A stretch of 37,748 nucleotides of DNA from Rhodothermales bacterium (lineage in GTDB: Bacteria; Bacteroidota; Rhodothermia; Rhodothermales; UBA10348). The notes beneath the pieces were generated by a model, which did not search any database, was not told where the DNA came from, and saw only the letters and a list, made by a program, of their open reading frames with translations. Shown one piece after another: positions 6,754 to 22,863 of the stretch; within the stretch, counting starts at the first letter, position 1; each line of letters begins with the position of its first letter. Position numbers and translations under genes: made by a program. The stretch covers positions 1 to 37,748 of the forward strand of contig JAURNP010000063.1 of the NCBI GenBank assembly GCA_030830105.1. The letters are read 5' to 3'.

Positions 6754-6906
6754 GTGACGAACCCTTTGTTACAAGCGTGACAATCGATCTTCGATCGGAT
6801 GCGAACGCGGCCAGCAGGGTATTGTTCGAAACAGGCCTTATTCCACTTCCAGGCTCGATTCTGGCGATGCCACCTCTATCGTTGCCCTCTGTCCGGGGGC
6901 TCTCGA

Positions 6907-7524
6907 TCAGGACTCTGATTGATTCCGTTCAAGTCGCTTGTTCAGATTCTCCATGAGTGCGTCAAACCCCCACTTGCGTACATAGGACTGAAACGAGCGG
7001 CTGTAGCCCTCGACCGTGCTGACCTCGTCAAGTACGACATCCGTGGCCAGCCAATCTTCTCCCGAGCGACGCAGCGCATACTCGACCACGGTGGGTACTT
7101 CCTTGTACACGGTTGTTGTGATGACCTGCGCATCATCTCCGGAGACAGTGATTTCCTCGTAGGTCACGTTCGCGCGGTAGATATCAACGTCCGCCAGGCT
7201 TTGATAGCGCACGATTTCAGCGAACACTTCCACGAACTCCTGCTGTTGATCGGCTGTTATCTCGTTCCAGTGACGGCCCAACGCCTCGCGCCCCATGGAG
7301 TCGAAATCGAACATGTCATTGACGGCTGCACGCAAGGCGTCCATCTGCGCATCACTAAGTTCCTCGTCATTGCCCAGGAGCTGTTTGATATCGGCTTCGC
7401 GCTGTTCGAGCATGACCCGGATTGCCTGGTCTTCGCCGGCTTGACGCGCAGCTGCTGTCTCTGCGGAGATGCTGGTGACTAGAATCGTCAGCAGCAAGAG
7501 GAAAGTGTTCAGTCGGGTGGACAT
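6907..7524 (-). CDS. MlaC/Ttg2D-family phospholipid-binding (toluene tolerance) protein
   Basis: MSTRLNTFLLLLTILVTSISAETAAARQ signal peptide; FDFDSMGREALGRHWNEITADQQQEFVEVFAEIV...SYVRKWGFDALMENLNKRLE matches the MlaC family pattern. The ORF track extends to 7569, but the signal peptide supports a start at 7524. Confidence 0.85.
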   Translation of the reverse strand: MSTRLNTFLLLLTILVTSISAETAAARQAGEDQAIRVMLEQREADIKQLLGNDEELSDAQMDALRAAVNDMFDFDSMGREALGRHWNEITADQQQEFVEVFAEIVRYQSLADVDIYRANVTYEEITVSGDDAQVITTTVYKEVPTVVEYALRRSGEDWLATDVVLDEVSTVEGYSRSFQSYVRKWGFDALMENLNKRLERNQSES

Positions 7525-7584
7525 GGTATCGGTGGGATCGGGCGATTTCAGCCCAAAATCGGTTATCAAAAGGATTCTACTAAC

Positions 7585-9009
7585 CTAGAGTCCAAGGAGT
7601 GTGCCATCCTGCATGGCCACCTGGAGTTGTCCGGTTTTTCGCAGGAGTCGGATGATGGCCACATTCAGGTTGAAGACCGTCTGCTCTCGCTGAGCTCGTA
7701 GGCTGAGGTTGTCCCTCACCGCGCGAACCAGGTTTTCGGTATCACCGAGATCCAGATCAAAGTTGATCTGCTCATCGCGAAGCCAGCGCTTCGAAATGAG
7801 AAGGGCCTCCTCGCGTGCGGACACAGCTGATTGGGCTATCAGGACTTTCCGGTAGGCTTCTTCCACCTCGAACAGGATCAACTGCCGGAGGGCTTCCTCC
7901 TGAGAACGGACTTCGGCACGCTGCGCTTGCGCTTGCCGCACTTTAGCCCGGGTCTGGGAGAAATTCAGGTTCTGCTGCACGACCAGGCCAGCCCGAACTC
8001 CACGGGAAAGGAAAGGGTCGCTCACGTAGGGATTGCGCTGGCGCTCGCGGCCTGCAGCATATGCCCATTTGCCCGTAAGCCCCAGGAAGAGTTTCGGGAA
8101 GTAGTCCGACTGGGCCACTTCGACCAGCGCGGATCTAGCCAAAACGCCGGCATCCGCCTGTCTCACTTCCGGTCGATCCGAAATCGCAATGCTTTGCCAG
8201 ACTTCGAGTGATTTCATATCGATAGCAATCGGGTCAAGTACCTGATTGCGGGTCTCGACACTTTGCCCATCGGCCAGGAAGAGTTGCCGTGACAACGCAG
8301 CGCGGGCCAGCTTTCGACTTTCTTCCACTTCAACCACACGCTGCAAGAACTCCTGTTCGGTGATCTCAACCTGGAAGAGGTCTGCATAATCCACATCCGA
8401 GGCTCCTTCTTCGAGCAACCGGTCGATTTCATTTTTTGCCTGTTCGACAATATCACCAGACTCCCGGGTCAGTCGACCCAGGGCGTCGGCCAACTGAAGG
8501 CTGTAATACAATTCTGCCGTGCGGGCAAGCACCTCGTCTTCCGTAACCCGGACACCTGCTGCGTCCAGATCGAGCCCGGCCCGTGCTGCCTCAATGGAAG
8601 ATCCGAGCTCCCCCCATGTCCACAAGGGCTGAATAGCCTCGAATTCAATCCGGTTGAACGGAGAGAGGTCGTCCCAGTCATTTCGCACATCCGGGTCGAG
8701 GTACAGTCGGTTCGCAGCTGTGTTGTTCGGGTTATCCAGGGCCGGTGCAAAGGAATGGGCCGATGTGGCGGAGAAGTCTGTCAGAAAGCGCGACGTACGC
8801 GCAAGGGACAGTCGCGCGTCCGAAAAGGCCCGCTTTGCCTCGGCAGCGTCCACTTCAGGGCTGACCTCGAGGGAGCGATCGAGTGCTTCAGACAGATCAA
8901 CCAGCATCGTGTCTGCGGCCTGACGCCCCAGGGCAGAGCAAGGAAGGAGGAGCAGGCAAACAAGAGCCGGCAAGAGCAAGAGTCGAGTAGACAGACGCAC
9001 GGGCAGCAA
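7585..9009 (-). CDS. TolC-family outer membrane efflux protein
   Basis: Signal peptide then repeated helical OEP pattern (DLSEALDRSLEVSPEVDAAEAKRAFSDARLSLARTS...; FNLNVAIIRLLRKTGQL). Start codon is TTG 9009 or nearby GTG 9000. Confidence 0.85.
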   Translation of the reverse strand: MLPVRLSTRLLLLPALVCLLLLPCSALGRQAADTMLVDLSEALDRSLEVSPEVDAAEAKRAFSDARLSLARTSRFLTDFSATSAHSFAPALDNPNNTAANRLYLDPDVRNDWDDLSPFNRIEFEAIQPLWTWGELGSSIEAARAGLDLDAAGVRVTEDEVLARTAELYYSLQLADALGRLTRESGDIVEQAKNEIDRLLEEGASDVDYADLFQVEITEQEFLQRVVEVEESRKLARAALSRQLFLADGQSVETRNQVLDPIAIDMKSLEVWQSIAISDRPEVRQADAGVLARSALVEVAQSDYFPKLFLGLTGKWAYAAGRERQRNPYVSDPFLSRGVRAGLVVQQNLNFSQTRAKVRQAQAQRAEVRSQEEALRQLILFEVEEAYRKVLIAQSAVSAREEALLISKRWLRDEQINFDLDLGDTENLVRAVRDNLSLRAQREQTVFNLNVAIIRLLRKTGQLQVAMQDGTLLGL

Positions 9010-9127
9010 GGGCCAATGGGAAAGGGACGAGAGTGCAACAAACGATGCGGATGTACACGAAGTTCTTGACGCGGTGAGGACCCATGTGGTAACTTTTGAG
9101 CAGCTCTTTGTAAATCATTCGACGGAC

Positions 9128-9345
9128 GCAATCAGGAGAGATAATTTCTCTGATTGCAGGGAATCCGGTCCGATACCGTTTCGCGGAAATCGGGAATCCG
9201 GAGCTGTGCCCGCAACTGTAAGTGATGCGCTGCGCCTTGTTGATTGGAACGACCACTGATGCTCCGGCCTGAATGGGCGGGATCGGGAAGGTTGACCAAG
9301 AAAGGAAGCGGCCAGACTGTCACAAGCCAGGAGACCGGTCCGATG
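9128..9345 (+). promoter_or_regulatory. Cobalamin riboswitch aptamer (adenosyl/aquocobalamin, RF00174-type)
   Basis: Core motifs: GGGAATCCGGAGCTGTGCCCGCAACTGTAAG (about 9193-9223), GGGAAGGTTGAC (about 9284-9296), AAGCCAGGAGACCGGTCC (about 9324-9341); directly upstream of a BtuB-like receptor. Confidence 0.93.
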
Positions 9346-9454
9346 AATGGTGTCCACGACCTCCGGGAATAGAGGTGCCAGCACCGATGCGTCGATTTCT
9401 TCGCACCAGGCCTCCGCATATTCCGGTCGCCGGGGTCGAGCATCGCCGTTGTTC

Positions 9455-9488
9455 GGGCCTGTACCTCGTTGAGGAACAGGCCCTTTTT
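9455..9488 (+). terminator. Rho-independent terminator of the riboswitch expression platform
   Basis: GGGCCTGT (9455-9462) A CCTC (9464-9467) GTT GAGG (9471-9474) A ACAGGCCC (9476-9483) then TTTTT (9484-9488). Confidence 0.88.
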
Positions 9489-9489
9489 C

Positions 9490-11469
9490 GTGCCCCATCA
9501 TTTTCAGGAGACACTCGTCTCCATTCTTTTCGTCGCTTGCGTGCTTGCGCTCGCACCCTTGGGTGCTCGCGCTCAGGTCGCGGATACCCTCTCGGCGAGA
9601 GTCGAGCCGAAAGAGGTATTACTCGGCGAGATCACGATCGAGGAGTCGTCCGACGGTGCGTCTCTGTTCCGGGGCCGACTGCGCTTGCAGCGCGCTTCCC
9701 TTGCCGCACAGGCTTCCCATGATGTGGTTCGTTTGCTGGATCACGTCCCGGGATTATCCATCCGACAAAGTGGTCCCACGGGTGCAGCGATGGCCTCGTT
9801 TCGCGGCCTCGGAGTTGCGTCGACTCATATTCAGTTGGATGGTGTCCGACTGGTTGATCCTGCTACCGGCTCGTTCGACCTGTCGGTCCTGCCTGCAGCG
9901 CTGATTCAGGCCGCTTCGGTGTCCTCTGGTACCTCGGCCGGCTTCACGCCCGGAGGCGTGATCTCACTTGAGTCACCCCGGTCCCTGCCATCGGCAGCCT
10001 CCTTCGAGAGTGGTTCTTTCGGTTTGCGCCACCTTCTTCTACAGGGCAGCGTGTCCAATAGTGGAGCAAAAGTAGCCGCTGCTGTCACCAGGACGACATT
10101 CGATGGCGATTTCCCGTACCGACACCCGATTCTGATCGAGAGCGCGGAAGTGCGTCGAGAGGGGGCCGATCGGCTGCAAAGCGCATTCTTTGTAAGCGCC
10201 CACCATGAACTGCGATCCGATGCGTTGGTCGGCGCGGGTCCGGTGCGCGCAGGCAACAGCCTGACCCGCCCCCCTGTTCATATACGGTTTCTGACCCTGG
10301 GCACCAGCGTGGAGCGTTCCCTCCCGGTCTTGTCAAACGCCGGTGGAACAGGTGCCTCCCAGGAAGATGATCTCTTGCTCCTCGCGCTCAACGTGTCATC
10401 GAGGCTCGGATCGATGCCTGCGAACGCAACCCTTTCCACGACCCGGACCGACTTCCGCTATGTGGCCTCAGATCTTGAGGCGACGCAAGTGCAAGTGCAT
10501 GAAGTCGCGCTTCGAGGAGGACTCTCCCGCGTGCTGGCTCTTCGCTGGGTGCTGGCCGTCGAGCCATCCTTTGTGCGAAGCCGTGTCACGACCCGTGATC
10601 GAAGAGATGTCAGCGAAGGGACGCTGCGCACATCGTTGGACTACGTGCGCAATGGCTGGATGACGGGCGCCTTCCTCGATACGCGATTGAGAAACACGCG
10701 ATCCGCTGAGGGCCTCGAAGGTGAAAGCGCGCATGACACGGCGTTGGCGCCTGGATTGTGGGCGGGAGCGCGCAACAATTCAGGTTGGGAGACGCGCCTT
10801 GCCCTCGCTCGCGTTTTCAGGCTTCCAACACTCAACGAGCGCTATTGGCAACCCGGAGGTAACGTGAATCTGCAGCCAGAGCATGGGTATCAGGTGGAAT
10901 GGCAGCTCAGTTACCGCCCGGATTCGAGAGATCTCCAAGCCCGCGTGGTTGTCTTTACCAGTCGTATTTCGAATCGCATCGTGTGGCGGCCCGCTTTTGC
11001 CGGTACGCAGCGCCGAATCTGGACGCCTGACAATGTAGCCCGCGTCTCGGGTCGCGGACTGGAGGCATTCCTGCGTTGGCGCATGGGTCAACCGTGGACC
11101 CTGACTCTCTCTGCTTCGCGCCTTCACCAGGTAGATCGCTCCAATCCAGCTGCGGCCTCCTATGGTCACCAAATCCGTTTTTCCGCGCCCTGGTCGGCTT
11201 CTTCGGAGGCCGAATACCGTCGCGGCCGCAGTGGCCTTTTTGCTTCCTGGCGATTGACAGGACGACGCTACACCGCAACAGACGAATCCACTTGGCTGCC
11301 GCCCCATCACGTCCTGGATGCCGGACTCATCTGGCACCATATCCGCGCTGGCATACCTCTGAGCTTCCAAGTGAGCGCAAGCAATTTGCTCAACGCTGCC
11401 TATGAATCATCGCCTTGGATGCCCATGCCTGGGCGAGCTTGGCGGGCGGCGCTCCGACTGGGACAATGA
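9490..11469 (+). CDS. btuB: TonB-dependent receptor, BtuB-like vitamin B12 transporter
   Basis: Plug domain DVVRLLDHVPGLSIRQSGPTGAAMASFRGLGVASTHIQLDGVRL; beta-barrel C-terminus SNLLNAAYESSPWMPMPGRAWRAALRLGQ; preceded by a cobalamin riboswitch. Start uncertain: GTG 9490 or TTG 9469. Confidence 0.87.
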   Translation: MPHHFQETLVSILFVACVLALAPLGARAQVADTLSARVEPKEVLLGEITIEESSDGASLFRGRLRLQRASLAAQASHDVVRLLDHVPGLSIRQSGPTGAAMASFRGLGVASTHIQLDGVRLVDPATGSFDLSVLPAALIQAASVSSGTSAGFTPGGVISLESPRSLPSAASFESGSFGLRHLLLQGSVSNSGAKVAAAVTRTTFDGDFPYRHPILIESAEVRREGADRLQSAFFVSAHHELRSDALVGAGPVRAGNSLTRPPVHIRFLTLGTSVERSLPVLSNAGGTGASQEDDLLLLALNVSSRLGSMPANATLSTTRTDFRYVASDLEATQVQVHEVALRGGLSRVLALRWVLAVEPSFVRSRVTTRDRRDVSEGTLRTSLDYVRNGWMTGAFLDTRLRNTRSAEGLEGESAHDTALAPGLWAGARNNSGWETRLALARVFRLPTLNERYWQPGGNVNLQPEHGYQVEWQLSYRPDSRDLQARVVVFTSRISNRIVWRPAFAGTQRRIWTPDNVARVSGRGLEAFLRWRMGQPWTLTLSASRLHQVDRSNPAAASYGHQIRFSAPWSASSEAEYRRGRSGLFASWRLTGRRYTATDESTWLPPHHVLDAGLIWHHIRAGIPLSFQVSASNLLNAAYESSPWMPMPGRAWRAALRLGQ

Positions 11470-11504
11470 TCCTTGTTCACCAACCATACCAAAGAAATAT
11501 CATT

Positions 11505-12605
11505 ATGAATACCCGCCTTTCTTCGACCCTTATCATTCTTGTTGTCTCTCTCTGGCTGTCCGGCTGCGACATGCTGGGAGGAGATGAGGGCTCCGGAGCG
11601 ACATTGGCTACTTCCATCATCGTGGCCAATGGCGGCAATTTTTCCGACCAGAACGGGACGCTGACGTTCTACGACCCGTCCACCCAGGCGACGACAGAGT
11701 CTTCCTCCCGTGCTGGATTCGTTCAAGGCCTGTTGGACGATGACCGAGGACTGGTGACGCTCATAAACACATTTGGTCAGGGGCGCATCGACATCCTGGA
11801 TCCATCCTCCCTGGAGACTACCGGACAGTACACGGACATCAGCAATCCACGAGATGCGGTATCGATTGATGATGTCCTCTGGGTGAGCACTTCCACCTTC
11901 GGCGAACCCGGGCAATTGATCGCCTTCAATGCTCAGGGGACGAAACTGTCGGCGAGTACGGTTGGATTCGTTCCGGAAGGGGTCGCGTCCTGGTCGGACC
12001 AGCTGGTAGTTGCCAACAATGGAAGCCTGGGTAGCGGATCCACTCTCAGTATTGTCTCTGAGGCAACGGGTGAAGTTCGCTCGGTGGAGACTGGGTGCGA
12101 TGGGCCACGCGACGTGTACACTGCGACCTTCTTGGTCGTCGTTTGCACAGGAAAAACGGTCTATTCGGCCGATTTCACCCAGATACTGGAGCAGACGCCC
12201 GGTCAAGTCCTGTTCATGGATAACGATTTCGAGGTTGTATCACGCATTGTCCTTCCCGCTCAAGCAGGATCGACCAACGGCACCGAGACCGGATTTTACT
12301 CGGAGCAGACCGACGAGTTGTTCGTGACGCTCTCGGCCACGGAAATGGTGCTGATAATCGATCTAGAAGGTCGATCGGTATCACAGACGCTCGAGCTCGC
12401 CGGGCATCCCACGCTCGTTGGGCTCTCCGGTATCGCCTATGATGCTGGCAGGGATCAGCTCTACCTCGGGCGCTTTCCGCAAGCGAGTGCAGGCCCGTTC
12501 CCAGACTATGCTGCCTCAGGAACCGTGCAGGTCATGAATCGTGAAGGAGTTCTCCTGCACTCATTTGGCGCAGGCGTCTCCATTTCTGCCATCACGCTGC
12601 GATAA
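11505..12605 (+). CDS. BtuG-like surface lipoprotein (DUF5074/YncE-like beta-propeller), putative B12-binding
   Basis: ATG 11505; lipobox LWLSGCDML; repeated blades (SIIVANGGNFSDQNGTLTFYDPST..., GRIDILDPSSLETTGQYTDISNPRDAVSIDDVLWVS, QLVVANNGSLGSGSTLSIV); directly downstream of btuB. Confidence 0.78.
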   Translation: MNTRLSSTLIILVVSLWLSGCDMLGGDEGSGATLATSIIVANGGNFSDQNGTLTFYDPSTQATTESSSRAGFVQGLLDDDRGLVTLINTFGQGRIDILDPSSLETTGQYTDISNPRDAVSIDDVLWVSTSTFGEPGQLIAFNAQGTKLSASTVGFVPEGVASWSDQLVVANNGSLGSGSTLSIVSEATGEVRSVETGCDGPRDVYTATFLVVVCTGKTVYSADFTQILEQTPGQVLFMDNDFEVVSRIVLPAQAGSTNGTETGFYSEQTDELFVTLSATEMVLIIDLEGRSVSQTLELAGHPTLVGLSGIAYDAGRDQLYLGRFPQASAGPFPDYAASGTVQVMNREGVLLHSFGAGVSISAITLR

Positions 12606-12610
12606 AGCCG

Positions 12611-12838
12611 GTGCCGCTACCATCTCGACAATCCCTTTGCATCGATCGATGCATTTGCAGCCGCGTCCTGTTCTCGGACCTACGCAAGGAGGCCGAAAAG
12701 GCGGAGGTGGACTCGTTCGAAGCGCTGCAGAAGGTCCGGGAGTTTGGCGTCAACTGCCAACTTTGCCACCCGTATGTACGACGGATGCTCAAGGATGGTA
12801 CGACTGAGTTTCACGAAATCCTTCGTGACGAATCCTGA
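12611..12838 (+). CDS. BFD-like [2Fe-2S]-binding small protein
   Basis: GTG start; CIC-X32-CQLC (CICSRVLFSDLRKEAEKAEVDSFEALQKVREFGVNCQLCHPYVRRML) matches the C-X-C...C-X2-C spacing of bacterioferritin-associated-ferredoxin domains; 5 nt after the BtuG-like stop. Confidence 0.72.
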   Translation: MPLPSRQSLCIDRCICSRVLFSDLRKEAEKAEVDSFEALQKVREFGVNCQLCHPYVRRMLKDGTTEFHEILRDES

Positions 12839-16122: not shown

Positions 16123-16313
16123 GGACACAGGCTCCCATTCGATTGAGCGAAGAAGGCCGCACAACGGCGGCTCTGGGTTCGGAATTTACCCATGGGGCGG
16201 ACTCCGGTTCTCAAGTCCCTCAAATTGACGTGCTATCCACCTACCCAGGTAGAGGCGATCTTGAGCGCGGCATCGGCGTACAGGGTGTCTCTCCTCTCAC
16301 CACCCACCCCGTC

Positions 16314-18611
16314 TTGAGTATTCGGCTGTCCATACGTTTCTGGATTCCCCTCTTGGTCCTGTCGGCATGGCTGCCTTCCATGGTGGTGCACGCACAGGGG
16401 CTGCAGGGCAGGGTGCTGGATGCAGAAACGCGTCAGGGCTTGCCTGGGGCGACCGTTCTGCTCATCCAGGGCGGCGAGAGGATGGCCGGACAGATTACGG
16501 ATGGGGCCGGCGTATTCGTCTTCGGCGATGTTCTTCCGGGCCAGTATGTGTTGGAGGCCTCTTTTGTTGGCTACGAGATTATCCGGGACACGCTTTCCGT
16601 TCCGTTGGACGGGCTGCTCGAATTTATTCTGGAGCCTACCCAAACCATGCTGGAAGAGTTGGTGGTTGAGTCTCAGCGGGTGAACCAGGAGCGTTATGCG
16701 GCTGGTCTTGAAACCATCCGCCCAAGTGATCTGGCCAGAGTTCCCATGTCGGACGTGACGTACGATCTGGCGGGGTATCTGCTCACGCTTCCGGGGATTG
16801 TGTCTACGGGAGACCGAGGTGGACAGCTGTTCGTGCGGGGGGGTACGCCAACGCAGAACCTGGTCCTGCTCGACGGCATGCGCATCTTTCAGCCGTTTCA
16901 TGTGGTTGGATTCTACAGCGCCTTTCCCGCCGACATCATTGCGACCACCGATGTGTATGCCGGTGGCTTCAATGCTCGATACGGCGGACGCATCTCGTCG
17001 GTAATCGATATCAAGACGCGCAACGGCAGCAAGGATCGTGTAACCGGCTCGGCTTCTATCGCTCCCTTTGTGAGCGGTCTTCGAGTGGAAGTACCGATCC
17101 TGAAAGATGAAGCTTCCCTCATTCTGTCAGCCCGTGAGTCCATCATTGACCGGATCGCACCGGAGGTACTAGGGGAAGAACTGCCTTTTCGTTTCGGAGA
17201 TCGATTTGCCAAGTTCCACGCATATCTGAATCAGACCTCCAGTGTGATGCTGACAGCCCTAAGGACTTCTGATACCGGAAACCTGCGATCCGGGGACCCT
17301 TCCGATCCATCAGTCGATATCCGGCGGTCAACCTGGAAGAATGAGGCCTATGGGGCACGCTACCTCTACATCCCGGAAGAGGCGGCGGTGATGTCTGAAT
17401 TCTCCGTCTACTACTCCTCCTTGGAAAGCCGCTATCGTCAGACGGCAGACGATGTTCGGAACGCAGATGTGTCGGAATTTTCGCTCAACATCGGATTCAC
17501 TTATTTGCTGGGAGCCAACCAGATCAATTTTGGCATCTTCGGCAACACCAATTTCTTCGACTTCAGCTTTGGTCGGGGTCGCAGCGATATCAATACCGGA
17601 GTAAGCAGCGGTGGTGCCTTCTTCGAAGGTCGGGTCGTTCCGAACGAGTATATCCAGATTGAGCCGGGTGTCCGTATCGAGGCATTCTCGCGTGGTCTAC
17701 GTCGTACCATCGCTCCTCGTTTGCGGCTTCAATGGCTGCCCTCAGGTGCTGGCAGCCGCAACAGACTCAGTTTTGCCTGGGGTCGGTACCACCAACAGAT
17801 TGTGGGCCTGAACAACGAGCAAGATGTATCCGACGTGTTCACGGTATGGACCGCTTCTCCGCGCGGCACGCCCGTGCCGCGCGCCGTGCATTACATCGCC
17901 GGTTGGCAGACACGTCCAATTCGTTGGCTGGAACTCTCGGTAGAAGGGTATCGCAAGGAGCTTACCGACCTGTCCTTTCCTGCTTTTGCCGATGAGGTCG
18001 GGGTGGTGGCTGAGTTCTCTCAGGTCAACGGGCGCGCCGAAGGCCTGGATCTCAAAGCTGAAATCGTTTCGAGAAACGTGTATTTCTCGGCAACCTATGG
18101 CCGCGCCAAAGTGAATTACGTCCGGCCCCCGCAGCTGTCGCGGGCCATTTTCCTGGCCGGCACGGGACGTTCCGTGGAACTGCCCCGTTTGGAGTTCAAC
18201 CCACCCCACGACCGTCGTCACCAGGTGGGCGCTACCCTTCGTGTGACAACGGGTGCCTGGTCGGTAGGCGCGCGCTGGCAATTTGGGTCTGGACTGCCAT
18301 TTACGCAGGTCAATGGCTATTACACCGGACTGGATGTTGACGATTTCTCATCGGTGGACTTCCTGACGGACGAGGGTAGCACGTTGGTCTCCCGTTCTCA
18401 GCCATACGGAGGTCGCATGCCGACCTATCATCGTCTGGATATCTCCGTCGAGCACAAGATGCCATTCTCGCGGGCGGATCTCACGCTTCAGGCTGGCGTC
18501 ATCAATGCCTACGATCGTGCAAACATTTTCGAGTACAACATCTTCACTGGTAACCGTGTAGATCAGCTACCGCTCATTCCCTCTCTTGGTGTGCGGGTGG
18601 ACATGCGATGA
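16314..18611 (+). CDS. TonB-dependent receptor with CarboxypepD_reg-like N-terminal domain (module 1)
   Basis: GLQGRVLDAETRQGLPGATVLL...; plug GGQLFVRGGTPTQNLVLLDGMRIFQPFHVVGFYSAFPADIIATTDVYAGGFNARYGGRISSVIDIKT. Start (TTG 16314) chosen from the signal peptide; the ORF track extends to 16143. Confidence 0.9.
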   Translation: MSIRLSIRFWIPLLVLSAWLPSMVVHAQGLQGRVLDAETRQGLPGATVLLIQGGERMAGQITDGAGVFVFGDVLPGQYVLEASFVGYEIIRDTLSVPLDGLLEFILEPTQTMLEELVVESQRVNQERYAAGLETIRPSDLARVPMSDVTYDLAGYLLTLPGIVSTGDRGGQLFVRGGTPTQNLVLLDGMRIFQPFHVVGFYSAFPADIIATTDVYAGGFNARYGGRISSVIDIKTRNGSKDRVTGSASIAPFVSGLRVEVPILKDEASLILSARESIIDRIAPEVLGEELPFRFGDRFAKFHAYLNQTSSVMLTALRTSDTGNLRSGDPSDPSVDIRRSTWKNEAYGARYLYIPEEAAVMSEFSVYYSSLESRYRQTADDVRNADVSEFSLNIGFTYLLGANQINFGIFGNTNFFDFSFGRGRSDINTGVSSGGAFFEGRVVPNEYIQIEPGVRIEAFSRGLRRTIAPRLRLQWLPSGAGSRNRLSFAWGRYHQQIVGLNNEQDVSDVFTVWTASPRGTPVPRAVHYIAGWQTRPIRWLELSVEGYRKELTDLSFPAFADEVGVVAEFSQVNGRAEGLDLKAEIVSRNVYFSATYGRAKVNYVRPPQLSRAIFLAGTGRSVELPRLEFNPPHDRRHQVGATLRVTTGAWSVGARWQFGSGLPFTQVNGYYTGLDVDDFSSVDFLTDEGSTLVSRSQPYGGRMPTYHRLDISVEHKMPFSRADLTLQAGVINAYDRANIFEYNIFTGNRVDQLPLIPSLGVRVDMR

Positions 18612-19447
18612 AACGCTCATTCCTGATTATAGCGCTGCTGACAACCACCCTGCTTCAAGTCGGGTGTGAGAATACGGTGGAGCCGATTTCGGCAGAAAGG
18701 GAAGACACCGTTGCTCTGTACGGCATTCTGGACATGCGATCCAATCAGCAGATTGTCCGGGTGGAGGCACTTCGCTCCACCATTCTTTCAGAGGATGACG
18801 GTTTGGATGGCGTGCGGGTGCGAAGCATCGTGGTGGGTTCGGGTACTTTCCAGGAGTGGCGGGATTCCACCGGGACCGATGAAGTAGGCAATCCGGTATC
18901 GCTGTACGTCTCGGATTTCAGGCCCGAAGCCGGGGCCACCTATCGATTGGCGGTGACACGTGAAGATCAGATTCTTGCTGAAGCGATTACAACAGTGCCC
19001 GCGGCTCCGGGTCTGTTGATCGATTCCGCAGTCGGGGACGAAAGCTCATTGGCTCAAACGGTATACCTGCGGGATATGAACGGGGCACCACAAGGTATCA
19101 CGGTTTCGTATACGATGATCGATATGGACCTGGGCAACCCGGTAACCATTCCGGTATCCTATGGCCAAATCGTGGAAACGCCCGTGACCCAACTGAATTT
19201 TGATGTCACGTATTGGTCGGATCGATTCGTGGTGATGAATGCCCTCGGCCGCGATATTGATGAGCCCGGCGTGCAGCTGCAGCGCATTGAATTGAGCTTC
19301 GACCTGCCAAGTCCGGAATGGGCCGATGTTGAATCCTCCAACCTGCTTGACGGACTTGGATTCTTTGCTTCGATAGGGCGCTATTCGTATTCCTGGCTAC
19401 TCGATGACCAAAGCGTTGCAACCATGGGATGGATTGACGCGCAATGA
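18608..19447 (+). CDS. DUF4249-like lipoprotein (module 1 partner)
   Basis: Lipobox TLLQVGCENTVEP; ATGA overlap with the upstream receptor; same fold pattern as 21883-22863. Confidence 0.75.
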   Translation: MKRSFLIIALLTTTLLQVGCENTVEPISAEREDTVALYGILDMRSNQQIVRVEALRSTILSEDDGLDGVRVRSIVVGSGTFQEWRDSTGTDEVGNPVSLYVSDFRPEAGATYRLAVTREDQILAEAITTVPAAPGLLIDSAVGDESSLAQTVYLRDMNGAPQGITVSYTMIDMDLGNPVTIPVSYGQIVETPVTQLNFDVTYWSDRFVVMNALGRDIDEPGVQLQRIELSFDLPSPEWADVESSNLLDGLGFFASIGRYSYSWLLDDQSVATMGWIDAQ

Positions 19448-19597: not shown

Positions 19598-21886
19598 TTG
19601 CGCAGCCACATCCGAGTGCCCGTTTCGGTCCGCATTTTTCTCCTTCTTCTGCTCTGGACCCTGCCGGCCGCCGCTCAGAACGGAACGATCCGCGGATTCA
19701 TCACGGATGAAGCCGATGGACAGCCCCTTCCGGGCGTCAATGTCATCCTGACCAATGCCGCTGGCGACCTCTATGGTGCCGCTTCGGATACAGACGGATT
19801 CTACGCCGTCTCGCGGGTCCCGGCCGGTGACTATCAGCTCAAAGCCTCTTTCATTGGCTTCCAGGAATTTGAGCGTAGTATCACCGTCGTCGCTGGCGAG
19901 ATCCAGACGCTCTCTATCGAGATGGCCGTGGAGGAGACAGAGCTGGGCGAAGTGGTGGTCGAGGGAGCACGAGAAACAGCCGGTGCAGCCAACGTGACGG
20001 CCGGCTTGCAAACCGTTCGGCCTGCTGACATTTCACTGGTTCCGGCGCCGGATATATCGGCCGACCTTGTCAACTATCTGACGGCGCTTCCGGGCGTGGT
20101 CTCCCAGGGTGACCGAGGTGGCCAGCTCTTCATTCGCGGTGGCGAGCCCACACAGAACCTGGTCCTTCTGGATGGGATGCAGATATTCCAGCCATTCCAT
20201 GTGGTGGGTTTCTTTTCGGCCTTCCCGTCGGATATTATCAACACGGCCGATGTCTACGCCGGTGGGTACGGCGGCAAGTTCGGAGGCCGTCTCTCCTCCG
20301 TCATCGACATTACCGCGCGAACCGGCAACAAGAGGCGCGCCGTAGGAGCTGCCACGATTGCACCATTCGTCAGCTCGATCCGTCTCGAGGGGCCCATCGT
20401 GCCCGGAAAGGTCTCTTTCCTGGGATCGTATCGTCGCTCCGTGATCGAGCAGGGCGCTGCCAAGCTCATTGATGAGCCGCTTCCGTTCAAGTTTGACGAC
20501 GCGTTCGCCAAGATCCACGCAAACCTCGGATCCAATGCGCAACTGTCCTTCTCGGGCATCCGCACTACGGATTCGGGGCGACTGGGGATCAACCCCCTGA
20601 ATGAAGGTGCCGACGGTATCACGCAGGACGAAGTGAACTGGGAAAACATGGCCTTTGGAACGAGATTCCTGTTCCTGCCTGCCACGCTGCCTGTGTTCGC
20701 GGAAATCGTATCGAGCTATTCTTCGCTGAAGAATGAGTTTGGCCCTCCTGGCGATCCTGAGCGCTCGACCGAGGCTAGCGTATTCTCATTTCAGGCCAAT
20801 GTGACCCACTATGTTGGGCCCAATAATTTCAACTGGGGGATCTTCCTCAGTTCATCGCAGCTTGATGCCAATCTGGGCGGCCTGTTCCAGAATGTGCAGC
20901 TGAAGAAGGAGTTCATCACCGAAGTCGGTGCGTATCTCGAGCCTGAATTCAAACCAACGGATGGTCTCAATATCCAGCCAGGCGTTCGTTTGCAGTCCTT
21001 TCCCTCGAAGGGAGAGACCTTCATCGAGCCGCGTCTGCGCATCGTCTGGAATACCGGCATCCATCGTCTTTCGGCGGCCGGCGGAATCTACCATCAGGAA
21101 ATTACGGGTCTGAATGACCGTCGCGACGCTGGCGATATTTTTACGGCGTGGACAGCTTCACCGTTTGGGACCATTCCTGAGGCGCGGCATGTCATTGCCG
21201 GCTACCGCATCGAGCCGGCCAATTGGGTGCGTTTTTCGGCGGAAGGCTTTTACAAGGACCTGACCAATCTGAACGTTTCGGAATGGACGGCATTCCCGCG
21301 TTTTACTACCAATGTGCAGATCGCCGACGGGACTGCTCGGGGGTTTGATCTGCGCATGGAAGTGGGGAGTAGCGATCGATTCCAGGCGACGGTAAGCTGG
21401 GGCCGCTCCGAAGTGGAATACGAAACCACCGCGCGTGCGCTGCAGCTCCTAACCGGAGATGACGCGGTGGCGTATGCCCCACCGCATGATCGGAAAGATC
21501 AGCTCAACGTGATGGCCAATGTCAATCTGAAAGGGTTCAACCTTTCTGCACGCTGGCAATTCGGTTCGGGTCTGCCGTTCAATGAATCGCTTGGATTCGA
21601 TCGTTTCGTATTGCTCGATTCTCTTGTTGCCGTTACCGAAGTCCCGGGCGAGGAGCGCGTGCTGTATGGACGACCGTACACAGGGCGCCTCCCGACCTAT
21701 CATCGTCTGGATGTTTCGCTGGACCGCGAATTCCGTGTCGGTCCGACCACATTCCTGACTGTGCAGACAGGGATCCTGAACGCCTACGATCGTCGTAACC
21801 TGTTCTACCTCGATCTCTTCACGCTGCGTCGTGTGGATCAGCTGCCGCTGATTCCAACGTTGGGTCTGAAACTGGAGTACCGATGA
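19598..21886 (+). CDS. TonB-dependent receptor with CarboxypepD_reg-like N-terminal domain (module 2)
   Basis: TTG start with signal peptide RIFLLLLLWTLPAAAQ; plug GGQLFIRGGEPTQNLVLLDGMQIFQPFHVVGFFSAFPSDIINTADVYAGGYGGKFGGRLSSVIDIT; paralogous to the 16314-18611 CDS. Confidence 0.9.
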   Translation: MRSHIRVPVSVRIFLLLLLWTLPAAAQNGTIRGFITDEADGQPLPGVNVILTNAAGDLYGAASDTDGFYAVSRVPAGDYQLKASFIGFQEFERSITVVAGEIQTLSIEMAVEETELGEVVVEGARETAGAANVTAGLQTVRPADISLVPAPDISADLVNYLTALPGVVSQGDRGGQLFIRGGEPTQNLVLLDGMQIFQPFHVVGFFSAFPSDIINTADVYAGGYGGKFGGRLSSVIDITARTGNKRRAVGAATIAPFVSSIRLEGPIVPGKVSFLGSYRRSVIEQGAAKLIDEPLPFKFDDAFAKIHANLGSNAQLSFSGIRTTDSGRLGINPLNEGADGITQDEVNWENMAFGTRFLFLPATLPVFAEIVSSYSSLKNEFGPPGDPERSTEASVFSFQANVTHYVGPNNFNWGIFLSSSQLDANLGGLFQNVQLKKEFITEVGAYLEPEFKPTDGLNIQPGVRLQSFPSKGETFIEPRLRIVWNTGIHRLSAAGGIYHQEITGLNDRRDAGDIFTAWTASPFGTIPEARHVIAGYRIEPANWVRFSAEGFYKDLTNLNVSEWTAFPRFTTNVQIADGTARGFDLRMEVGSSDRFQATVSWGRSEVEYETTARALQLLTGDDAVAYAPPHDRKDQLNVMANVNLKGFNLSARWQFGSGLPFNESLGFDRFVLLDSLVAVTEVPGEERVLYGRPYTGRLPTYHRLDVSLDREFRVGPTTFLTVQTGILNAYDRRNLFYLDLFTLRRVDQLPLIPTLGLKLEYR

Positions 21887-22863
21887 TGGACAGCACGAAT
21901 AGACCTACTATGCACGCCGCAGACCCAAACGCCCAACCTGGTCGATCCATGCGATCACGAATCAAAACGCTTCCGCTGCTTGTCGCCATGATGGCGGCTG
22001 CCATGCTGTGGACAGGTTGCGAGGATACCGTCAATCCGTTTGTCGAAGAGGATCGCTACTTCACGCTGTTCGGTTATCTGGATACGGCTACGGATGAGCA
22101 GTACCTGCGGGTGATTCCGTTGCGCACCGACTTCGCGGCGCTTGAGGCTGGTGAGATCGATGCCACAGTCACAACAACGGAAGTGGAAACCGGGCGGTCA
22201 ATTGTTTGGCGCGATTCGTTGATCACCTTCGACGATGGGTCAACGGGCCACATATTCGTCTCGAACTTCCGCCCGATTCCGGGCTGGACCTACAATCTGA
22301 CGGTTGCGCGCGAAGATGGAAAGCGCGCCGAAGCTACTACGACCATTCCGGTTGTGGATGGCGTTGAACTGGATGAGCCGACCATTTCAGTTGCAGCCGT
22401 TTTCCAGAAGATTCGCTGGGACAACGTGGACTTCCCGCCATTCAGGGTTGAAGTCTGGTACCGGTTCCTGAACGCCTCTCCCGGTCAGCCCTTCCTGGAT
22501 GCCGTGATTCCTTACGGCAATGTAGGAGATCTCTATGGCCAACTTGTGCAGGGCGACAAGTGGGAAGTCCTTGTCAGGTTGACTGCAGACAAGGAAGAAG
22601 TCACCAAAGAATTGGGCGTCTCGGATGACGCTCAGCCATTCCTTATGTCCGTCGGTATGCGTCTGACAATGACTTCTGATTCCTGGCGTCCGCCGGATGG
22701 CGTCTTCGATCGCGAGGTACTGGTACAACCAGGTACCTTTTCGAATGTGGACGGCGGGTTCGGCTTCTTTGGTTCGGTCAATCAGTTCTCCTATGAGTGG
22801 ACACTCGAGCCCAACATCACCGAGTTGATTGGTTACACCTATCCGGGTAAGCGTTCCCAGTAG
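21883..22863 (+). CDS. DUF4249-like lipoprotein (module 2 partner)
   Basis: Lipobox AMLWTGCEDTVNPF; ATGA overlap with the upstream receptor; paralogous to the 18608-19447 CDS. Confidence 0.75.
   Translation: MMDSTNRPTMHAADPNAQPGRSMRSRIKTLPLLVAMMAAAMLWTGCEDTVNPFVEEDRYFTLFGYLDTATDEQYLRVIPLRTDFAALEAGEIDATVTTTEVETGRSIVWRDSLITFDDGSTGHIFVSNFRPIPGWTYNLTVAREDGKRAEATTTIPVVDGVELDEPTISVAAVFQKIRWDNVDFPPFRVEVWYRFLNASPGQPFLDAVIPYGNVGDLYGQLVQGDKWEVLVRLTADKEEVTKELGVSDDAQPFLMSVGMRLTMTSDSWRPPDGVFDREVLVQPGTFSNVDGGFGFFGSVNQFSYEWTLEPNITELIGYTYPGKRSQ

Follow-up and report, generated by a model that had tools for sequence, protein, structure and literature searches.

The 37,748-nucleotide stretch of contig JAURNP010000063.1 examined here (the window), from a Rhodothermales bacterium related to Salinibacter and Rhodothermus, very probably carries a B12-repressed cobamide uptake operon made up of a cobalamin riboswitch, the TonB-dependent receptor BtuB and the lipoprotein BtuG; we put the probability of this reading at about 0.88. 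The two proteins are identified as BtuB and BtuG because sequence profile, predicted fold, operon context and riboswitch all agree, which bears out the BtuBG-type locus of the original prediction. The features on which that prediction was built (riboswitch, TonB receptor, propeller lipoprotein, Bfd-like protein and their tight spacing on the + strand) are confirmed as real. The operon is compact and runs in the order riboswitch, btuB, btuG, Bfd-like gene, all on the + strand, with gaps of 35 nt between btuB and btuG and 5 nt between btuG and the Bfd-like gene. This order is kept across dozens of genomes, so the arrangement is not due to chance. The elements of the uptake operon, with the evidence for each, are:

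9107..9357, + strand: cobalamin riboswitch aptamer RF00174 (cmscan 73 bits, E 2.6e-16, full model 1-189)
9455..9488, + strand: expression platform, with hairpin GGGCCTGTACCTC-GTT-GAGGAACAGGCCC at 9455-9483, then TTTTT (sequence, orthologous leaders)
9490..11469, + strand: btuB, TonB-dependent cobalamin receptor, GTG start (Pfam plug and barrel, PDB homology)
11505..12605, + strand: btuG, predicted seven-bladed beta-propeller lipoprotein, ATG start (lipobox, profile, AlphaFold model, Foldseek)
11565..11567, + strand: codon of the predicted lipidated cysteine, mature residue 1 (lipobox; invariant in alignment A1)
11628..11660, + strand: NGGNFSDQNGT loop, counterpart of the BtuG2 loop Asn54-Thr64 (alignment to 8bmx_D)

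BtuB and BtuG

The receptor has a PF07715 plug and a PF00593 barrel, both above the Pfam cut-offs. A phmmer search of the PDB (E ≤ 0.01) returned four chains only (8bmx, 8p97, 8p98 and 8blw; best E 5e-22), and all four are Bacteroides BtuB (BtuB1-3) from BtuBG structures. The result that weighs against a B12 receptor is that of TIGR01779, the B12-receptor equivalog, to which the protein scores 51.7 bits where the cut-off is 599.7, Bacteroides BtuB not having been scored alongside. The plug and barrel bear out the TonB receptor that had been placed downstream of the riboswitch, and its GTG start at 9490 is right, since in homologues, too, the start codon comes 0–3 nt behind this hairpin and U tract. 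TTG at 9469 was ruled out as the btuB start; it lies within the hairpin, and homologues start after it.

The lipoprotein carries the lipobox LSGC, and the cysteine to be lipidated is invariant among the lipid-anchored members in alignment A1, the 30 homologues that served as BtuG family profile. Pfam returned a sub-threshold match to DUF5074 only. Searched alone against the PDB, the protein matches BtuG chains best, at an E value (0.04) too weak to count as proof; the family profile and the fold decided. The A1 profile recovered BtuG1, BtuG2 and BtuG3, mostly over their full length (E 1e-16 to 4e-18), and the sole match to score higher was 1l0q, a repetitive surface-layer YVTN propeller, by summing of repeats. 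The AlphaFold model (pLDDT 93.9) gave the same answer in Foldseek: the top 18 matches are BtuG1-3 and BtuK1 (E 4e-15 to 5e-10), led by BtuG3, BtuG2 and BtuG1 with TM scores of 0.69–0.77 by query length, and the first match from outside the Btu proteins, E. coli YncE (E 6e-10), stands behind them. The propeller-like lipoprotein that was to be modelled against BtuG thus matches it in both profile and predicted fold. BtuG2 holds its ligand like a “pair of pliers”, by the loop Asn54-Thr64 and a loop of blade 5 (PMC10404256). In the alignment to 8bmx_D, the first of these loops (NEGNFQYSNAT) falls on NGGNFSDQNGT of the window protein, and no other motif of the Rhodothermales BtuG family is as well conserved in A1.

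Could the receptor and propeller import another ligand, the fold being merely a common one? Propeller lids serve siderophore receptors too: the siderophore piracy system XusAB (PMC13142918) pairs a TonB receptor with a propeller lid lipoprotein, as here, and XusB is seven-bladed. The weak similarity of the single sequence to BtuG would also allow this. XusB, however, belongs to DUF4374, which the family of the window lipoprotein does not match, and where XusAB has a siderophore as ligand, the window locus has a cobalamin riboswitch, which heads the operon across the order and the phylum. As the leading PDB matches in sequence and in fold are also B12 proteins, we regard a ligand of another kind as highly improbable.

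The closest known systems are BtuB2G2, BtuB1G1 and BtuB3G3 of Bacteroides thetaiotaomicron (PMC10404256, PMC6143338), which are likewise operons of a riboswitch, a TonB receptor and a propeller lipoprotein, and whose BtuG shares the predicted fold and the B12-gripping loop motif at ~14% identity in structural alignment. The window locus differs in belonging to Rhodothermales, in being the single riboswitch locus and in the addition of a Bfd-like ferredoxin; BtuH, BtuJ and BtuK were not recognised in the operon, and some relatives carry a tail of the type IX secretion system (T9SS) in place of the lipid anchor. The BtuB-BtuF-BtuCD system of E. coli also combines a riboswitch-controlled TonB receptor with a separate BtuF/BtuC importer, but has neither a surface lipoprotein lid nor a linked ferredoxin.

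The riboswitch and its expression platform

The search with RF00174 recovered the canonical cobalamin riboswitch core as a complete model, at 73 bits against a gathering cut-off of 31.5 bits, and as a single copy in the whole genome. The leader RNA folds 3.7 sd better than shuffled versions. Its platform hairpin carries a Shine-Dalgarno-like GAGG in the 3' arm, and the btuB start codon at 9490 follows the TTTTT tract. When the 330 nt that follow the aptamer were scanned in 36 orthologous leaders, 29 proved to hold a hairpin with a T-rich tract; a few of these hairpins are short or badly placed and perhaps due to chance. In most of the 29, an ATG or GTG lies 0–3 nt past the T tract and GAGG lies in the 3' arm. 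Across 22 aligned hairpins, the outer stem positions are paired in nearly all sequences, with several pair types swapped; one position shows the pairs TA, AT, GT, CG and TG.

The hairpin is probably an intrinsic terminator that also holds the GAGG. With a covarying stem, a U tract, GAGG in the 3' arm and an adjacent start codon, a single hairpin could serve as terminator and also mask the btuB ribosome site. A generic terminator scan did not list it because a mismatch interrupts the stem. Control of translation only would explain the position of the GAGG and the start codon immediately after the hairpin; a GC-rich stem that runs straight into five U, however, has the form of an intrinsic terminator, and we hold this narrower role to be unlikely.

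These elements suggest the following model. At high cobalamin, the aptamer would bind its ligand and the downstream hairpin would form, so that transcription stops and the ribosome site of btuB is buried; under B12 shortage, the cell would make BtuB, BtuG and the ferredoxin. By analogy with Bacteroides, BtuG would sit as a surface lid on BtuB, catch cobamide in the pocket of its propeller and pass it on to BtuB. BtuB would move the cobamide to the periplasm with TonB energy, and BtuF and BtuC (BtuFCD), encoded elsewhere in the genome, would carry it into the cytoplasm. The Bfd-like ferredoxin may then act as electron donor to cobalamin that has just been imported or has become oxidised, in support of a PduO-type adenosyltransferase and/or the reactivation of MetH. 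We infer the first three steps from homology to tested systems and the ferredoxin step from gene neighbourhood. The original prediction had spoken of B12 piracy/uptake: uptake holds, and piracy, from a host or a neighbour, is without support.

BtuG in the order and the phylum

In a profile scan of genome contigs seeded with the Bfd-like family, the relatives that carry names are Rhodothermales (Salinivenus, Longimonas, Rhodothermus), in keeping with the Rhodothermota-like lineage proposed from the letters. BtuG homologues occur in 42 of 60 relatives, and btuB adjoins btuG in 41 of 41 loci. In at least 36 of 41 genomes of the order, RF00174 and BtuG share a strand, with the riboswitch 1.9–2.3 kb upstream; in the remaining five the BtuG locus is at a contig end.

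BtuG has been reported in Bacteroidetes only (Wexler et al. 2018, PMC6143338). We surveyed 396 genomes from the GTDB phylum Bacteroidota, with a cut-off of E ≤ 1e-10 for the BtuG profile, and obtained BtuG matches in 164 and RF00174 in 374. At least 46 of 54 testable genomes from outside the order have RF00174 no more than 9 kb upstream of BtuG, mostly at 1.9–2.6 kb. We conclude that BtuG is not a gut speciality and that, in GTDB Bacteroidota as a whole, its place is some 2 kb downstream of RF00174. The claim of a locus outside Bacteroides is correct for the genus, but BtuG-like genes stand beside cobalamin riboswitches throughout this phylum, so the locus is not an isolated transfer. Rhodothermota is a separate phylum at NCBI yet falls inside the GTDB phylum sampled here, so the trait is wide within the superphylum. 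The two-part system was discovered in Bacteroides of the human gut, and BtuG has been discussed as a response to crowding there. That BtuG and the riboswitch occur together in environmental Rhodothermales, and more widely in the phylum, suggests that lidded receptors for B12 go back a long way in this group.

Nine BtuG members, spread over at least four families of the order, have no lipobox. The eight complete ones (L042, L043, L044, L045, L047, L049, L050 and L058) are ~450–500 aa long and have a C-terminal domain, matching Por_Secre_tail above the Pfam cut-off in L045, L049 and L050 and more weakly in L042 and L044, and FlgD_ig above the cut-off in L043. These domains suggest that in some families the lipid anchor of BtuG was swapped for type IX secretion. 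Because T9SS cargo goes outside, the tails of these relatives also argue for the putative display of BtuG on the cell exterior.

The Bfd-like ferredoxin

The last gene of the operon was taken in the original prediction for a BFD-like protein and an extra iron-sulfur component; it is real and conserved. It follows btuG in 34 of the 39 loci of the order with enough sequence, and the four cysteines of its CxC...CxxC pattern, which marks Bfd in a protein of 60–75 aa, are invariant in 27 sequences. Its features are:

12611..12838, + strand: putative Bfd-like [2Fe-2S] ferredoxin, 75 aa, GTG start (CxC...CxxC, Fer2_BFD)
12650..12766, + strand: predicted cluster-binding segment CxC...CxxC (C14, C16, C49 and C52 invariant in alignment A2)

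Fer2_BFD matches the window protein at 22.3 bits (E 2e-4), below the gathering score of 26, and all 27 family members at E < 0.01. The nearest solved sequences are Bfd proteins. The protein has no signal peptide, which places it in the cytoplasm. It shares with Bfd its size, the four-cysteine pattern and the Fer2_BFD domain, and differs in lying in a B12-riboswitch operon instead of an iron context and in falling below the gathering score.

Genes of this family recur beside B12 genes in other settings. Downstream of riboswitch-btuB, the gene is found with btuG absent in G029, G043 and G053. In family f13 it is preceded by genes for a DUF6580 membrane protein and for a BtuF-like protein that has no signal peptide; in locus L138 it directly follows metH, with cobA three genes on and a riboswitch 7.5 kb upstream. 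In L131 it stands ahead of a gene for a class II ribonucleotide reductase that depends on B12, and in four loci from planctomycete metagenome-assembled genomes (L087, L088, L090 and L091) RF00174 lies ~2 kb upstream. The ribonucleotide reductase beside the Bfd homologue in L130, B12-dependent by appearance, was ruled out as class I. Genome G004, of the same genus as the window, lacks the riboswitch, btuB and btuG and keeps the Bfd-like gene between the same neighbours, along with MetH and PduO. Its locus L136 (around 6435; also L065, around 6001) is a natural experiment in which btuBG was lost and the Bfd-like gene retained.

Both MetH and the PduO-type adenosyltransferase require cobalamin reduced to Co(I), and in E. 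coli flavodoxin serves MetH. The genome of the window (a 2.5 Mb assembly, 91% complete) has MetH, a PduO-type adenosyltransferase and BtuF- and BtuC-like genes; CobA is absent from 60 of 60 relatives. None of the 27 genomes of the Bfd-like protein's family has Flavodoxin_1. The genome has one ferritin, of the non-heme FtnA type, and bacterioferritin was not found in the 91% that the assembly covers. Our literature search, which left subscription journals mostly outside, found nothing relevant on Bfd with cobalamin, BtuG in Rhodothermota or MetH donors. Given the need of MetH and PduO for Co(I), and with no flavodoxin or bacterioferritin found, electron supply to cobalamin is our best guess: the genome context points, at slightly less than even odds, to a ferredoxin for intracellular cobalamin reduction, serving the adenosyltransferase and/or MetH. 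Somewhat more doubtful is the wider proposal of a dedicated B12 ferredoxin that supplies these enzymes in flavodoxin-less lineages and whose gene joined the Rhodothermales uptake operon.

Several results weigh against such a role. Foldseek gave zero matches for the model of the protein. Several genomes (f14, f15, G007) have MetH with neither the Bfd-like protein nor flavodoxin, so other electron donors exist; f13 genomes hold the gene without MetH; and flavodoxin loss mirrors its presence only incompletely. In Balneola-like genomes the gene is flanked by dCTP deaminase and RsmE and lies apart from B12 genes. These homologues without a B12 link would suit a bacterioferritin-associated ferredoxin of the ordinary kind, one that releases iron from storage and came into the operon by chance, as would the Fer2_BFD domain and the kinship with solved Bfd proteins. 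The placement in most loci of the order and the recurrence beside B12 genes in other lineages argue otherwise, and because the sole ferritin is of FtnA type, with no bacterioferritin found, we consider the textbook role quite unlikely. Another cytoplasmic need that rises in B12 shortage, such as iron-sulfur supply or unrelated reductases, would account for the gene being kept without btuBG in G004 and lying elsewhere in G032 and the Balneola-like genomes; it fits less well with repeated adjacency to B12-handling genes in separate lineages, and we think it less probable than reduction of cobalamin. If cobalamin is indeed the acceptor, the recurrent ferredoxin hints at a missing electron donor in B12 assimilation.

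The DUF6580 small membrane family recurs in cobalamin-riboswitch operons of three families (L056, 7734-8273 on the - strand; L139, 5819-6430; L138, 6056-6613) and is a candidate S-component of a B12 transporter; no mention of it was found in the literature searched. The B12 operon of L056 also encodes a BtuF-like Peripla_BP_2 protein (6768-7709, - strand) that has no signal peptide and is possibly cytoplasmic. The class II ribonucleotide reductase of L131 (1773-5498) is split by an intein with a LAGLIDADG domain, and in L088 the riboswitch is separated from the Bfd-like gene by genes for an uncharacterised secreted protein and for a DUF1559 protein. In the window, an outer membrane efflux protein and an MlaC protein are encoded on the - strand upstream of the riboswitch, and an M1 peptidase with a sorting tail, unrelated to the operon, lies downstream of the Bfd-like gene. 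Further on, positions 16143-19447 and 19598-22863 hold two tandem pairs of a TonB-dependent receptor and a DUF4249 protein, apparently duplicated.

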